A stretch of DNA of 64,000 nucleotides from Metabacillus flavus (GTDB lineage: Bacteria > Bacillota > Bacilli > Bacillales > Bacillaceae): assembly GCF_018283675.1 (NCBI RefSeq), contig NZ_JAGVRK010000001.1, positions 2,108,001 through 2,172,000 of the forward strand, written 5' to 3'. Both the position numbers and the translations under genes were made by a program. The notes below the pieces were generated by a model. The model saw only the letters and a list, made by a program, of their open reading frames with translations. It was not told the DNA's origin and searched no databases. Positions 47,952-55,539 of this stretch are shown here, piece by piece. Numbering within the stretch: position 1 is the stretch's first letter; the number at the start of each line of letters is the position of its first letter.

Positions 47952-48505
47952 ATGTGGGAAGATGTGTATCAAACTTACTTTGTTTTACCTGATGATGAAA
48001 AGGAAAAGTTTATACGAGGAATAGAGCGAGATAAAACTGCCACAGTTCTGATATTGCTAAACTAATTTCCAGCATTCGAGAAACCCGTTTCAGTGAAGGA
48101 GTGGGGTGCGTTCACTGCGGTTCAATTGCGGTAGTCCGACACGGAAAGTACCGTGGTCGCCAACGTTTTCAATGAAAGGATTGCAGCAAAACATTCAACG
48201 ATATGACAAATACTCCAATCGGCGGCACACATAAACCTCATCTGTGGCTCAATTTTATGGAATTGATGGTGGAAGGATATACCCTTCCCAAAATCGTAAA
48301 ACACCCTGATATTCATATTTCTACTGCTTTCTACTGGAGGCATAAAGTGTTAAACGTTGTTCGCTCAATCGGGGAGAGTGTTCTTCAAGGTGTCATTGAA
48401 AGTGATGATACTTATCTTCTAGAAAGTATGAAAAGAAGTAAGCATATCACTCACCGGGAGCCTCGTAAGCGTGGTGGAGTTGCTCCTGAAAGAGGGATTA
48501 GCAAG
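47952..48505 (+). pseudogene. Broken IS1595 family transposase
   Basis: Fragments in order: MWEDVYQTYFVLPDDEKEKF (frame 1, stops at 48065); then in another frame GVGCVHCGSIAVVRHGKYRG, a TGA where the third zinc Cys should be, KDCSKTFND, and finally DDTYLLESMKRSKHI with REPRKRGGVAPERGIS. The zinc-ribbon plus DDTYLLES pattern is that of IS1595 (ISXO2-like) transposases. Damage: one frameshift, one nonsense change, loss of the C-terminal part. Confidence 0.75.
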
Positions 48506-48667
48506 AGTCTTAACACCTGTTGATTGGAGTGGAAGGCGCGAGACTCCGAGCTGAGAGCAGCGGGACAGGTGAGACCCCGCAGGCGCAAAGCGGCGAGGAG
48601 GCTCACCGCCCGCCCCGCGGAAAGCGAGCGCCTGCAACGGAAATCAACAGCCAAGTTTAACAGAGCC
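48505..48667 (+). repeat. 5'-truncated MITE copy
   Basis: Begins TTAACACCTGTTGATTGG, which is base 33 or so of the reference copy, and is otherwise nearly identical to 15045-15229, ending TTTAACAGAGCC. The likeness suggests recent copying. Confidence 0.7.
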
Positions 48668-49746: not shown

Positions 49747-51021
49747 CTAAATTAGTAAGTTAAAGAGCTGTTCATCCTTATTCACTTCTGTGTAATGAAA
49801 TCCCTTTGAATCCATTCTGGCAATCAGCGTTGCGTAGTCCTTTTTATCCTTTAATTCAATTCCCACAAGCGCAGGACCGTTTTCTTTATTGTTTTTCTTT
49901 GTATATTCAAACCGGTTAATATCATCTGCCGGACCGAGTACATCGTGCAAAAACTCTCTCAGAGCCCCTGCCCGCTGAGGAAAATTAACGATGAAATAGT
50001 GCTGCAGTCCTTCATAAATCATGGATCTTTCTTTGATTTCCTGCATCCTTCCAATATCATTGTTCCCGCCGCTTACAATACATACCACATTTTTCCCTTT
50101 AATTTCATCACGGCAAAAATCAAGCGCGGCAATCGGCAATGCACCTGCAGGCTCTGCTACAATCGCATTATCATTATACAATTCCAGAATGGACGTGCAC
50201 ACCTTGCCATCAGGCACGAGCACGGTTTCGTGACAGAAGCCATTGGCGATGGCAAATGTCTTCTCTCCCATGCGCTGAACGGCAGCTCCATCCACAAATT
50301 TGCTGATTTTAGGCAGCGTGACCACCTCCCCGGAAGACTTCGCTGAAGTAAACGATGCAGCAGCTTCCGGTTCGACCGCCATAATCTTCGTATTCGGGGA
50401 AACCGCCTGAAAATATGTACCTAAACCTGAAATCAGCCCGCCTCCCCCGACACTTGCAAAAACAAAATCAATAGGCACATCCGTATCATTCAAAATTTCA
50501 ACTGCCACTGTACCCTGACCTGCAATTACTTCTTCATCATCAAACGGATGTATGAATGCCCTGCCCTCTTCCTCACAGCATTTAACTGCTTCATGATAGG
50601 AATCATCAAATGTATCTCCGCACAAAATAATCTCAGCATTACCATTTGCGAATTTCTCCACCTGGTTCACTTTTTGCCTCGGGGTGGTGCTTGGCATGAA
50701 AATTTTCCCTTGAACCCCAAGCGCCTTGCAGGAATAAGCTACACCCTGCGCATGATTTCCGGCACTGGCACATACAATTCCATTTTCAAGTTCTTTGCTG
50801 CTCAGTGATTTCATTTTGTTAAAAGCCCCTCTTATTTTGAACGACCGGACAAGCTGCAAATCTTCCCTCTTAAGGTAAACATTGCACTGATATTGCTCAG
50901 AAAGCTGACGATTCAGCTGCAGCGGGGTATGAATTACCACTTCTTTAAGAAGATGATGAGCTTTTAGAATCGATTCCACATGGACAATTGACGATTGATT
51001 TCTGAGAGCTAACGGATTCAT
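49747..51021 (-). CDS. ilvA: Threonine ammonia-lyase IlvA
   Basis: 424 residues. PLP lysine in SFKIRGAFNKM, catalytic domain with VCASAGNHAQGVAY and VSGGNND, and one ACT-like regulatory domain at the C-terminus (HYFIVNFPQRAGALREFL). Converts threonine to 2-oxobutanoate for isoleucine synthesis; short single-ACT form as in B. subtilis. ilvD is 10 kb away. No T-box leader was found upstream. Confidence 0.94.
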   Translation of the reverse strand: MNPLALRNQSSIVHVESILKAHHLLKEVVIHTPLQLNRQLSEQYQCNVYLKREDLQLVRSFKIRGAFNKMKSLSSKELENGIVCASAGNHAQGVAYSCKALGVQGKIFMPSTTPRQKVNQVEKFANGNAEIILCGDTFDDSYHEAVKCCEEEGRAFIHPFDDEEVIAGQGTVAVEILNDTDVPIDFVFASVGGGGLISGLGTYFQAVSPNTKIMAVEPEAAASFTSAKSSGEVVTLPKISKFVDGAAVQRMGEKTFAIANGFCHETVLVPDGKVCTSILELYNDNAIVAEPAGALPIAALDFCRDEIKGKNVVCIVSGGNNDIGRMQEIKERSMIYEGLQHYFIVNFPQRAGALREFLHDVLGPADDINRFEYTKKNNKENGPALVGIELKDKKDYATLIARMDSKGFHYTEVNKDEQLFNLLI

Positions 51022-51514: not shown

Positions 51515-52687
51515 TTATTCAAATGTCCCCTTCACTATGACTTGCCCTTCCTTCATCATAACCTGTCCTTTGGCTATAACCGTTCTGATTTGCAAGGTTT
51601 CTTTATCAGCAAGAACGAGGTCCGCATCCTTACCTTCTGCAATTATGCCCTTTTGGGTTAGCTTGAGAATGGCGGCCGGATTCGAAGTAATCACTTTAAT
51701 TGCTTCTTCGGCCGGGATGTTCTCTATCAGTATTGCGTCTCTTACTTCATTAAAAAGTGAAGTAATATTTCCGATCTGCAAACCCGTCAGCTCCCCGGCT
51801 GAATTAAACTCAGGCAGACTTGCCTGCGCGTCGGATGTGAAGGTGATGTTCTCCGCAGGTACCCCCTCCTCAAGCATCCGTTTTAATCCCGTGCTGCATT
51901 TTACTTCTCCCTGGTCCAGAAATCGCTGTACAGTGCTAGTGGTAAAGTCAACAAGGCCGCCGTTTTTGGCAAACTCAATGCCCGCCGCAAACAAGTGGGG
52001 ATTGCGGTTGATATGGGTGGGATGAAAAATTTTGATCGGGATGTCCGTTTCTTCGCAAACCTTCTGAATTAAATCCAGCTTTCCCTTGCCATCGCCTAAA
52101 TGAATATTGACGATCCCTGCTTTACCTGACAGCATTCCGCCGATTCTCGCAGCAGAAGCAATTTTAGCCAGCTCTTGCCATGCAGGCTGGGACGAGCGGT
52201 GATCACTGATTGCGATTTCACCGCAGCCGATTATTTTATCGATGAGAATTAAGTCATCTTCAATTTTGCCTGTGAGGGTCCGGACAGGAATCTGGTAGCT
52301 GCCGGTGTGAACATAACAAGTTATCCCTTCCTCTTCCAAAGCCCTTGCTTTCGCAAGCAAGCTTGGCATAGTTCTTGTTGTTCCGTCCGTCCCTATGACC
52401 CCGACAATTGACGTCACGCCGCCTTTGATTGCTGAGCTTAATTTCAGTTCGGGAGTCCTCGTTCTATAGCCGCCTTCTCCTCCGCCCCCCATAATATGTA
52501 CATGTGAATCAATAAACCCCGGAAAAACCGCCTGGCCATCTGCATCAATGGTTTCTGACAGGTATTCACTTGGAAAAGAACATCCAGGTTCCTTTATAAA
52601 AGCTATTTTTCCGCCGGCAGTGATCACATCTTTTTTCCCTAAATATTCAGGAGCGTATAGTTCTCCATTTTTTATTAATTTAAGCAA
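51515..52687 (-). CDS. iadA: Isoaspartyl dipeptidase IadA
   Basis: 390 residues, the length of E. coli IadA. Amidohydrolase (M38) with PGFIDSHVHIMGGGGEGG (first metal His pair), YQIPVRTLTG, ISDHRS, NIHLGDGKGK, HPTHINRNP and TSDAQASLPEF (last metal Asp). Hydrolyses beta-aspartyl dipeptides arising from damaged protein. The TTG start at 52687 is 6 bases after AAGGAGGA; the longer frame start at 52723 would lie inside the sigma-54 promoter, so it is excluded. Confidence 0.9.
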   Translation of the reverse strand: MLKLIKNGELYAPEYLGKKDVITAGGKIAFIKEPGCSFPSEYLSETIDADGQAVFPGFIDSHVHIMGGGGEGGYRTRTPELKLSSAIKGGVTSIVGVIGTDGTTRTMPSLLAKARALEEEGITCYVHTGSYQIPVRTLTGKIEDDLILIDKIIGCGEIAISDHRSSQPAWQELAKIASAARIGGMLSGKAGIVNIHLGDGKGKLDLIQKVCEETDIPIKIFHPTHINRNPHLFAAGIEFAKNGGLVDFTTSTVQRFLDQGEVKCSTGLKRMLEEGVPAENITFTSDAQASLPEFNSAGELTGLQIGNITSLFNEVRDAILIENIPAEEAIKVITSNPAAILKLTQKGIIAEGKDADLVLADKETLQIRTVIAKGQVMMKEGQVIVKGTFE

Positions 52688-52722
52688 ATCTGTTCCTCCT
52701 TCATATCGTTTCACTATTTTCA

Positions 52723-52738
52723 AGCAAGAATCATGCCA
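52723..52738 (-). promoter_or_regulatory. Sigma-54 promoter of iadA
   Basis: Minus strand TGGCATGATTCTTGCT: the -24 GG and -12 GC are exactly 12 bases apart, against consensus TGGCAC-N5-TTGC. About 35 bases before the iadA start, with the sigma-54 activator gene yplP divergent next to it. Confidence 0.75.
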
Positions 52739-52792
52739 TGTTGTAATCCCCTAGGAGAATTAATTTCATTCTGCTCATTTTATTTTATTGGG

Positions 52793-52821
52793 TTCAATTA
52801 GTTCCATTTGGGTGTTATAAT
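52793..52821 (+). promoter_or_regulatory. Sigma-A promoter of yplP
   Basis: TTCAAT (52793-52798), 17-base spacer, TATAAT (52816-52821), 33 bases before the start codon. Confidence 0.5.
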
Positions 52822-52854
52822 GCAATTATAGTTACGAGACAGGAGCGAATGCTA

Positions 52855-54882
52855 TTGAGTCCAGGAAAATTAATTTTACTAACCGGAACTGAACAAACGA
52901 GAAAAGCTCTTCACGGGCAGCTCCTTGAACTGTTTAATGAACTGATTTCGATTGAATCCTTTTCTATGGATGAAGGTTTGCCTGACACTTTTGCTCCCGG
53001 TCCGATATTGATTTCTTCTCGAGATTTAAAAAATGAAATCGAACCATACCTTTCCCCTGACGCCGAAATCATAGAAGCAATTCGAACAATTAATGTTGAG
53101 AAACTGGAAAAGCTGCTGCTTATGCCAAAAGGCTCCAAGGTTCTTGTTGTCAGCGATACACATGAAACAGCAGCTGAGCTGATTCATCAGCTTATAGAAC
53201 TTGGAATACAGCACGTCCGATTTGAGCCTTATAAAAAAGAAAACACTGCTTTTGATGCAGACCTGATCCTTTCTCCCGGGGAAATGATTCTTGCACCTAG
53301 CCATTCAGCAGTCAAATTGGATATAGGAGTTCGCCTCATCGGCTCCCCTACCATTCAGGAATTGGCAAATCGGTTTGAGCTTTTCTCCCTGAACTATATA
53401 TTAACAGAACGGCAAATGAAGCACGCCGTCAGCCAGCAGCGGCTGCTGACTGAAGCGAAAACTTCAGCTATGCTAGCAGAAAAAAATCTTCGGCTTGTCG
53501 TTGATCAGGTGAGCGAGGGTGTGATTGGTGTCAGTGCTTCTGGAATCATTACGGCCTTCAATTCCGTGTGCGAGCTGATTTTCCAGCTTGACAGGGAGGA
53601 CGTTGCCGGAAAATCCATTCACCTTTCAGGACTTGATGAAGACGTGATTTCCTATATAGCGGCAGGAACGGAACCCTTTCAGCTTTTCAGCATTAATGGA
53701 ATGGAAGCGGCCATTTACCGGAATGAAACGAACGGAATCATTACAGCTACCATCAGCAGGGTCAGCAAAGCTTCAGAGATCAATGCTGCGGCAGCAGAAT
53801 GGGCAAAAAAAGGATTCACGGCCAAATATACGTTTGATCAAATAATCGGCAGCCATTTAAGCATGCTGGATACAATTGGCACCGCAAAAAAACTGGCACT
53901 TTCCGAATTGCCGGTTTTGATTGAAGGAGAAACCGGAACGGGTAAAGAGTTGTTTGCGCAAGCGATACATAACGGCTCCGGCAGACGCTCAGGACCCTTT
54001 GTTGCCGTTAACTGCAGCGCCCTCTCGGCTTCCCTTTTTGAAAGCGAGCTATTCGGCTACGAAGCAGGAGCCTTTACAGGAGCACAAAAAGGCGGAAAAA
54101 AAGGGCTGTTTGAACAAGCAAACGGAGGCACCCTGTTTCTGGATGAAATCGGAGACATTTCCGGAGACCTACAGGCAAGCCTGCTTCGTGTTCTTCAGGA
54201 AAAAGAGATCCGCAGAGTAAGCGGAACCCAAAATATCGCGGTGGATGTAAGGATCGTTGCCGCCACTAATATGAATCTGAGAGAAAAAATGGCGGACGGG
54301 GATTTCCGTGCCGATTTATTCTACCGCTTAAATGTTTTTTCCATTCAAATCCCGCCTTTAAGAGAACGGAAGTCAGACATTCCTATTCTTGCAGAAGAAT
54401 TTCTGAAAAGAAGCGGAGCTGTCACCCGGATGGATTCAAAGGTAATGGATACGTTAATGAGAGAAGAATGGGAAGGAAATGTAAGGGAATTAAAGAATTC
54501 GATTGACTATATGCTTGCCGTATCCGATGGAAAAACGATTCAGCTTCATGATTTTCCCGGAAAAACGGTCAAAAAACAAAAGAAAAAAGAAAAAGAAGCA
54601 GCCCCGCTGCAGCTTACCCTCATGGATAAACAGGAATTTGTGTTTATCCTTGAGACGATCCGGATCTCCAATGAAAGCGGAGAGCCGGCAAGCAGGAGAA
54701 TTATTTCGGAAATCAGCAAAACGGGTACCCATCCTCTTACGGCACAGCAGGTCCGCCATAGGCTGGACTTTCTCGAAAAGCATAGCTATGTAACGAAAGG
54801 ACGCGGACGGGCAGGAACTAAAATTACTCTAGAGGGAATGGATTTCCTCCACTCGCTTAAATCTCATCTCGGAAACCATTAA
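52855..54882 (+). CDS. yplP: Sigma-54-dependent transcriptional activator YplP
   Basis: About 675 residues. N-terminal ligand-sensing region (about 1-190) with PrpR-like layout, PAS domain (about 215-300), AAA+ domain with Walker A GETGTGKE at 360-367, GAFTGA sigma-54 contact loop at 407-412, Walker B GGTLFLDE and the arginine finger region RADLFYRL. The C-terminus is not a Fis-type helix-turn-helix; instead [20 protein letters not shown] looks like a winged helix. TTG 52855 fits the AGGAG better (9 bases) than ATG 52849 (3 bases). Divergent from iadA. Confidence 0.87.
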
Positions 54883-54897
54883 AAGGAGCTGGAACGA

Positions 54898-55539
54898 ATG
54901 GAATTTACAATAAAAGAAGAGATTGCCAACGCAATTACCCATGGCATCGGTGTGCTGCTTAGCATTCCCGCTTTGGTGTACTTGATTTTGTTTGCTGTAT
55001 GGTACGGGGATACAATCAGTGTGGTCAGCTTTTCAATTTTCGGAGCATCGATGATTTTACTTTATTTATTCTCGACGCTGCTTCATGCAATCCAGCATAA
55101 AAAAGCGAAGCACATCTTTGCTATTCTCGATCACTCTGCCATTTATATACTGATTGCGGGAACTTACACCCCGCTCCTGCTTGGGCCTCTCAGAGGAACC
55201 TTCGGATGGACCCTGCTCATCATCATCTGGAGTCTGGCGGTTGCCGGAGTGGTGTTTAAAATCTTTTTTGTAGACAGGTTTGTAGTATTATCCACACTCT
55301 TTTACATTCTTATGGGCTGGCTCGTTATTATTGCAGCGAAGCCGCTCTATGAGTACTTGTCTATGGAAGGATTCATGCTTCTTCTCATTGGCGGGATTCT
55401 CTATACGGTCGGCTCTATTTTCTACGTATGGAGGAAGATCCCTTATCATCACGCCATCTGGCATTTGTTTGTTCTAGGCGGCAGTGCTTCCATGTTTTTC
55501 TGTGTGCTGTTTTACATCGTGGATGTACCCTACATTTAA
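54898..55539 (+). CDS. yplQ: Hemolysin III family membrane protein YplQ
   Basis: 213 residues, seven helices. PAQR/hemolysin III family marks: NAITHGIGVLLS near the start with the first His, HAIQHKKAKHIFAILDHSAIYILIAGTYTP, and HHAIWHLFVLGGS near the end with metal His residues. Biological role uncertain. RBS AAAAGGAG, 15 bases after yplP, same transcript. Confidence 0.88.
   Translation: MEFTIKEEIANAITHGIGVLLSIPALVYLILFAVWYGDTISVVSFSIFGASMILLYLFSTLLHAIQHKKAKHIFAILDHSAIYILIAGTYTPLLLGPLRGTFGWTLLIIIWSLAVAGVVFKIFFVDRFVVLSTLFYILMGWLVIIAAKPLYEYLSMEGFMLLLIGGILYTVGSIFYVWRKIPYHHAIWHLFVLGGSASMFFCVLFYIVDVPYI

Follow-up and report, generated by a model that had tools for sequence, protein, structure and literature searches.

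The iadA-yplP divergent region

We analyzed a 64,000-nucleotide stretch of the Metabacillus flavus genome (positions 2108001-2172000 of 4.03 Mb; genome G000), called the window below, in which the isoaspartyl dipeptidase gene iadA lies divergent from the gene encoding a full-length YplP, a predicted sigma-54 activator. To our knowledge, the targets of YplP have not been established in Bacillus subtilis, and we know of no report of YplP targets. The following features were recognized:

51515..52687, minus strand: iadA, isoaspartyl dipeptidase (beta-aspartyl-peptidase), 390 amino acids, TTG start (TIGR01975)
52723..52738, minus strand: predicted sigma-54 (-24/-12) promoter of iadA, TGGCATGATTCTTGCT, the sole exact match in the window
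52784..52817, no strand assigned: candidate YplP binding site found with a matrix, direct repeats TTGGGTTCAA / TTAGTTCCAT / TTGGGTGTTA of 10-base period (52788-52817)
52849..54882, plus strand: full-length yplP, 677 amino acids (Pfam domain matches)

The iadA product matched the equivalog-level model TIGR01975 with an E of 5.3e-168 (559 bits, cut-off 331), and its nearest solved structure by sequence was the isoaspartyl dipeptidase 7cdh (E 2.7e-111). The initial annotation had placed a minus-strand -24/-12 motif 35 bases before iadA, and this was confirmed: TGGCATGATTCTTGCT, at 52738-52723, was the only match to TGGCAN6TTGCT without mismatches in the window and is separated by 35 bases from the TTG start at 52687, itself preceded by a GGAGG ribosome site. 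The sigma-54 consensus is near TGGCAC-N5-TTGC with a canonical gap of 10 bases between GG and GC, and the same gap is found in TGGCATGATTCTTGCT. The iadA transcript is predicted to start at about 52712. Matches with up to two mismatches were not commoner in the window (82) than in shuffles (mean 79.06), which leaves the exact match as the only informative one; across the whole genome, TGGCAYN5TTGCW occurred 14 times and the reversed control pattern four times. TGGCATGATTCTTGCT was identical in two genomes of the same genus (G075 and G076) and changed by one base in a third (G077). The regulator does start divergently from iadA as annotated. However, the distance of 117 bases given for it is 110 when counted from 52738 to the ATG at 52849, the former figure matching a TTG at 52855 rather than the ATG.

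YplP had been described as the sole sigma-54 enhancer-binding protein of the window, and a single PF00158 match indeed fell within the window coordinates. The protein is composed of an N-terminal region (residues 1-205), a PAS domain (214-258), an AAA+ domain with GAFTGA (332-500), a lid (505-584), and a winged helix (604-667). Pfam matches were obtained to PF00158 (E 2e-67), PF00989 (E 5.3e-5), and PF25601 (E 2.6e-19), and marginally at the C terminus to the HTH_12 winged helix PF08461 (E 2.2e-4, 21.6 bits against a cut-off of 21.4); HTH_8 was not among the matches listed. An intact GAFTGA within a Sigma54_activat AAA+ domain and a C-terminal DNA-binding domain are both what is expected of an enhancer-binding protein. 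The N-terminal region gave nothing better than E 0.07 against Pfam and E 0.11 against PDB sequences.

Conservation of the promoter, the repeats, and the gene pairing

To survey the order, a profile of the YplP N-terminal region was run against 397 genomes, yielding 91 listed matches (E <=1e-70) outside the family of the window. These loci were chosen by the regulator N-terminal region alone, and -24/-12 sites in them were scored with weights of our own (maximum 17.8), at a cut of 16.5 for the iadA counts; the background was 9 sites per 1,333,722 strand-positions. An iadA gene was found within 8 kb upstream of the regulator in 85 of the 91 loci, and a -24/-12 site headed the iadA operon in all 85. 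Where regulator and iadA were divergent the site was present in 68/68 (scores 16.6-17.8), compared with 1/68 in the plus-strand control and a chance expectation of 0.0054 per locus. Conservation of the motif alongside the gene pair, on which the initial annotation had staked its proposal, therefore held throughout. A YfcC-type transporter was also encoded in all 68, and the loop of the regulator read GAFTGA in 34, GTFTGA in 22, and GSFTGA in 12. A chance origin of TGGCATGATTCTTGCT was considered and rejected on the 14 versus 4 genome-wide counts and the 68/68 divergent loci.

All 17 co-directional loci carried the site as well: before yfcC in four, before an Opp-type operon in one, and in the other 12, nine of whose regulators have GAFSGA, immediately ahead of the leading gene of an Opp-type operon or at that gene's predicted start. 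An apparent loss of the site in these 12 was overturned once further upstream DNA was examined. Opp-type assignments were made by eye, one locus being verified by matches to SBP_bac_5, OppC_N, and oligo_HPY. Six order loci had no iadA, and four of them (L204, L238, L239, and L241) had the site at, or close to, the start of an operon encoding a transporter. Two of these four, both lacking iadA nearby, hold other genes behind the site: in L204 an L-asparaginase II gene (PF06089, E 4.7e-116) follows the Opp-type operon, and in L241 a Peptidase_C26/class-I amidotransferase gene (PF07722, E 4.7e-64) accompanies yfcC.

Within the family, 80 genomes were surveyed and 30 of the yplP loci matched in them were analyzed, 16 of these being short forms, and all 14 genomes with a full-length regulator had the site on the iadA operon. 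In 13 of these the regulator (GAFTGA or GTFTGA) had a divergent site scoring 17.2-17.8; the fourteenth (L013, AAFTGA) was located away from its presumed targets, and its genome had a site of 17.6 on a distant yfcC-iadA operon and one of 17.7 on a cyanophycinase gene. The divergent operon of nine loci (L038-L046) consisted of a YfcC-type (DcuC family) transporter gene followed by iadA and, in L039-L042, by an 841-residue cyanophycinase-type gene, one or two representatives of each gene having been typed. In one of the 13 (G054; L022/L046) the full-length regulator is broken into two open frames, the target operon and site being intact. In total, iadA was found in 23/80 genomes, 14 with a full-length regulator and nine without. 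The latter showed no site >=16.5 within 1.5 kb upstream of iadA in any of ten loci, where a promoter could lie beyond 1.5 kb if the upstream gene is co-directional; the top score was 16.4, in two loci of one genome and inside the upstream gene.

A scan of named genomes covered 31 loci. Regulator, iadA, and site occurred together in nine, Metabacillus, Rossellomorea, and Pontibacillus among them; a Calditrichales genome combined regulator, site, and YfcC, and a Mesoaciditoga metagenome-assembled genome regulator, site, and iadA. Seven loci (L098, L103, L106, L107, L108, L117, and L118) had no targets and no site >=16.5. Another 13, more distant (L109-L116 and L119-L123), had sites somewhere in the locus and no targets except a distant YfcC-like match in L114; these may belong to other regulons.

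The repeats between yplP and the iadA promoter were evaluated with a 20-base matrix built from 51 of the 68 divergent order loci, after 17 near-duplicates had been dropped. Across all 64 kb it reached 13 bits or more at two places alone, 52794-52813 (16.7 bits) and 52784-52803 (15.8 bits); a score of 16.7 bits was reached by 0/400 window stretches and 0/500 shuffles, and the background was 13 sites >=16 bits per 868,818 bp. Sites of at least 13 bits were present in 62/68 divergent order loci, most of which are training data. The simpler pattern AACC-N5-7-AACC, picked post hoc on 12 promoters (8/12, shuffle mean 0.13), was then tried on unseen loci: of the 68 order loci, 34 had it in the interval from the -24 site to the regulator, 200 shuffles giving a mean of 2.1 and at most 8.

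The genome has one sigma-54 gene and three clear sigma-54 activators, YplP included (four weak PF00158 matches of <=42 bits were left out of this count), so one could propose that the iadA site is real and served by the BkdR-like activator or by the PAS-type activator of the gntP-like operon. This is very improbable. Both of these activators, which end in Fis-type HTH_8, are near a -24/-12 site of their own (about 6 kb away for one) that lacks YplP-type repeats, and in the 1.5 kb upstream stretches covered iadA has no -24/-12 site where YplP is short or its full-length form absent. Among the 14 -24/-12-like sites of the genome, the matrix marked those of iadA and of a cyanophycinase gene (17.0 bits), all others scoring <=2.4 bits. 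One of the remaining sites (L067, G000:C1:1609236) precedes a permease gene with weak GntP/CitMHS similarity (E 6.5e-5, falling slightly short of the cut-off), with CoA-transferase- and dehydrogenase-like genes, as judged by eye, and the PAS-type activator about 6 kb downstream; this is perhaps a hydroxybutyrate regulon.

Cyanophycinase and the predicted YplP regulon

Cyanophycinase was recognized by TIGR02069 (E 4.8e-97), and in this genome a -24/-12 site and YplP-type repeats lie upstream of the gene. Cyanophycinase was found in 12/80 family genomes, 11 of which also had a full-length regulator; in the exception (G074) the regulator is degenerate and the cyanophycinase has no site. In eight family genomes the gene lies apart from iadA, with a -24/-12 site at seven of them, which suggests that it is under the same predicted control as iadA. 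Among order genomes sampled by hand, 24 with the regulator and 24 without, long-form cyanophycinases (443-874 amino acids, with signal-like leaders judged by eye) occurred in 7/24 and 0/24, respectively. A site was just upstream of six of the seven long forms at a cut of 16.0, or five at 16.5 (L293 scoring 16.4), and the seventh (G083) lies past the far end of an Opp operon whose head carries the site. Matrix scores at the six were 24.7, 24.4, 17.0, 13.6, 7.8, and 1.4 bits. None of four short intracellular-type cyanophycinases had a -24/-12 site.

Isoaspartyl dipeptide hydrolysis had been put forward as the YplP regulon. The comparisons support iadA as a target, but not iadA alone: the predicted regulon also includes a YfcC or Opp transporter and a cyanophycinase, the latter frequently encoded in another operon that carries a -24/-12 site too. 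These additional members point to beta-aspartyl dipeptides derived from cyanophycin as the likely signal or substrate. Taken together, the genomic evidence makes it highly probable that full-length YplP is a sigma-54 activator for the scavenging of beta-aspartyl dipeptides, chiefly from extracellular cyanophycin, a polymer rich in nitrogen that other microbes produce. The N-terminal region and PAS domain would sense a dipeptide-derived signal, and the winged helix, judging from the conserved motif, would bind the direct repeats (AACC-N6-AACC) located between yplP and the promoter of its target. As in other members of the activator family, the GAFTGA loop would open the sigma-54 polymerase at the iadA site and at those of separate cyanophycinase operons. 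The enzyme families suggest that a secreted cyanophycinase cuts the polymer and that IadA splits beta-Asp-Arg into Asp and Arg, after import by the YfcC-type or Opp-type transporter.

Several observations weigh against this proposal. Two of the 91 order loci (L237 and L242) lacked both iadA and a site over the stretch examined, and 20/31 named-genome loci, mostly weaker relatives, lacked iadA, cyanophycinase, and a close YfcC. The loci share descent and their counts are not independent events, and the -24/-12 weights were ad hoc, built from a consensus. Ala replaces the first Gly of GAFTGA (ASFTGA, AAFTGA) in L198, L203, L205, L212, and L013, despite which these genomes have strong -24/-12 sites on target operons. 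The matrix scored low at some linked promoters (1.4 bits in L292, 7.8 in L296, 9.1 at the cyanophycinase of G075, and 9.2 at yfcC of G078), and its score at the cyanophycinase promoter of this genome was matched by 1/300 shuffles. That cyanophycinase is itself interrupted (L066, G000:C1 about 1999215-2002556), with pieces of 173 and 657 amino acids and internal stops, and in G054 and G068 the gene is split. It is intact in G075, G076, and G077, and the interruption could be either decay or a sequence error. Finally, a cyanophycinase above the family cut-off was present in only 8/24 regulator-bearing genomes of the order sample (2/24 of those lacking the regulator). Given this low count and the broken or split genes, cyanophycin is not the sole source of substrate. 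As for this strain, a search for a YfcC homologue elsewhere in the genome, run without a positive control, found none; with the cyanophycinase also broken, only the last step, by IadA, is visible.

The scarcity of cyanophycinase and its interruption here would also fit a regulon for recycling the isoaspartyl dipeptides that arise from protein damage or from imported digests of protein, with cyanophycin being incidental. We consider this doubtful, since the long forms are confined in our sample to regulator-bearing genomes and mostly have a -24/-12 site, whereas the four short intracellular-type enzymes do not.

Scavenging of cyanophycin dipeptides would be shared with the gene clusters of the dipeptide hydrolase CphZ, which Sharon et al. 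reportedly described in PNAS in 2023; the YplP regulon, however, uses IadA and not CphZ. In its gene content of cyanophycinase, iadA, and transporter, the predicted regulon resembles the cyanophycin utilization locus of Ben Hania et al. (cited in PMC10206079), but here the transporter is of YfcC or Opp type and the operons are sometimes separate. The accessible part of PMC10206079 describes cyanophycin gene clusters without describing sigma-54 control, the word sigma being absent from the paper. What was accessible of two articles retrieved from the open PMC literature for cyanophycin and sigma54 (PMC10136082 and PMC9723704) does not treat the regulation of cyanophycin degradation, and in the same literature we found nothing joining cyanophycin with YfcC or isoaspartyl dipeptidase with sigma54. 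The arrangement also recalls the sigma-54 catabolic operons of RocR, BkdR, AcoR, GabR, PrdR, and SoxR, which, from the portion of PMC4428206 available, share an adjacent AAA+ activator, a -24/-12 promoter, and a role in the use of nitrogen or carbon sources. YplP differs from these in its HTH_12 winged helix, its unnamed N-terminal region, and its direct-repeat site.

The proposal assigns a regulon to an activator without reported targets known to us, and names a predicted DNA element and a first candidate small molecule for it. A dedicated activator would be added to cyanophycin scavenging, and the same pairing of regulator and targets recurs across many Bacillus relatives.

Short YplP proteins and the yplP locus

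The regulator gene of the window is flanked by the markers of the yplP locus:

49747..51021, minus strand: ilvA, flanking marker (NF006390, E 1.3e-194)
52813..52821, plus strand: probable sigma-A promoter of yplP, with the extended -10 TGTTATAAT overlapping the last repeat (read from the sequence)
54898..55539, plus strand: yplQ, HlyIII/TrhA family, downstream neighbour (NF011669, E 1.6e-78)

The extended -10 was absent from the output of a simple promoter scan. Because the repeats overlap this promoter, YplP probably limits its own expression. Other yplP-locus relatives also have yplQ adjoining yplP, and the order ilvA-yplP-yplQ is presumably shared by B. subtilis. This context, together with common ancestry with the short YplPs, marks the window protein as a probable YplP orthologue.

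The 16 short YplPs analyzed in the family have all lost the sensor, and their GAFTGA loop is deleted or degenerate. After exclusion of L031 (61 upstream bases), a site >=16.5 was present within 1.5 kb upstream in 0/15 of their loci, including L024 and L028 with iadA adjacent. An AACC-type operator is kept upstream of yplP in 14 of these 15 (L021, L023-L030, and L032-L037), at >=16.3 bits, L028 being the exception with 2.2. In a tree of 56 AAA+ and winged-helix regions, full-length and short yplP-locus proteins formed one clade (99/93), which fell among the iadA-linked regulators beside a full-length one (95/86), some inner forks being open. On the best reading, the short YplPs would be derived, having lost the sensor and GAFTGA but mostly retained the operator.

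B. subtilis YplP is reportedly linked to cold shock, in work by Wiegeshoff. Like the window protein, it is found in the ilvA-yplP-yplQ neighbourhood, and we infer that it belongs to the clade of the short YplPs. The window protein differs, by comparison with the short forms of the family, in having the sensor, PAS, and GAFTGA. This descent would explain why B. subtilis YplP looks like a sigma-54 activator despite its absent GAFTGA loop. According to the accessible part of Francke et al. (PMC3162934), the protein lacks GAFTGA and was mis-ranked for that reason; in view of this, and of the short YplPs without GAFTGA and sensor, the regulon assignment is not transferable to B. subtilis YplP. If the B. 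subtilis case is extended to the window, its YplP would act at sigma-A promoters and not be a sigma-54 activator, with which the overlap of the repeats and the yplP promoter agrees. We find this hard to credit for a protein with an intact GAFTGA, when the loop and, within the 1.5 kb covered at 15 loci, the -24/-12 site are missing together from the short YplPs. In the available part of another B. subtilis study, yplP was alone among regulator genes in changing threefold at 5 min in response to all three of valine, glutamate, and glutamine (PMC2743287).

A broader scenario, in which belief and doubt are for us evenly balanced, is that the ancestral YplP was dedicated to sensing cyanophycin dipeptides and activating sigma-54 promoters, being common throughout the order and represented in distant phyla as well. 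The N-terminal region would be a new beta-aspartyl-dipeptide-binding domain. In the subtilis-type short YplP, a decapitated descendant, the sensor and the loop contacting sigma-54 would have been deleted and the operator retained, leaving a regulator that works without sigma-54 on the promoter region of its own gene and perhaps on that of ilvA.

Between a DegV-like gene and ilvA, a short open reading frame (48203-48523) with no Pfam match at E 0.001 has, by eye, the look of a transposase fragment.

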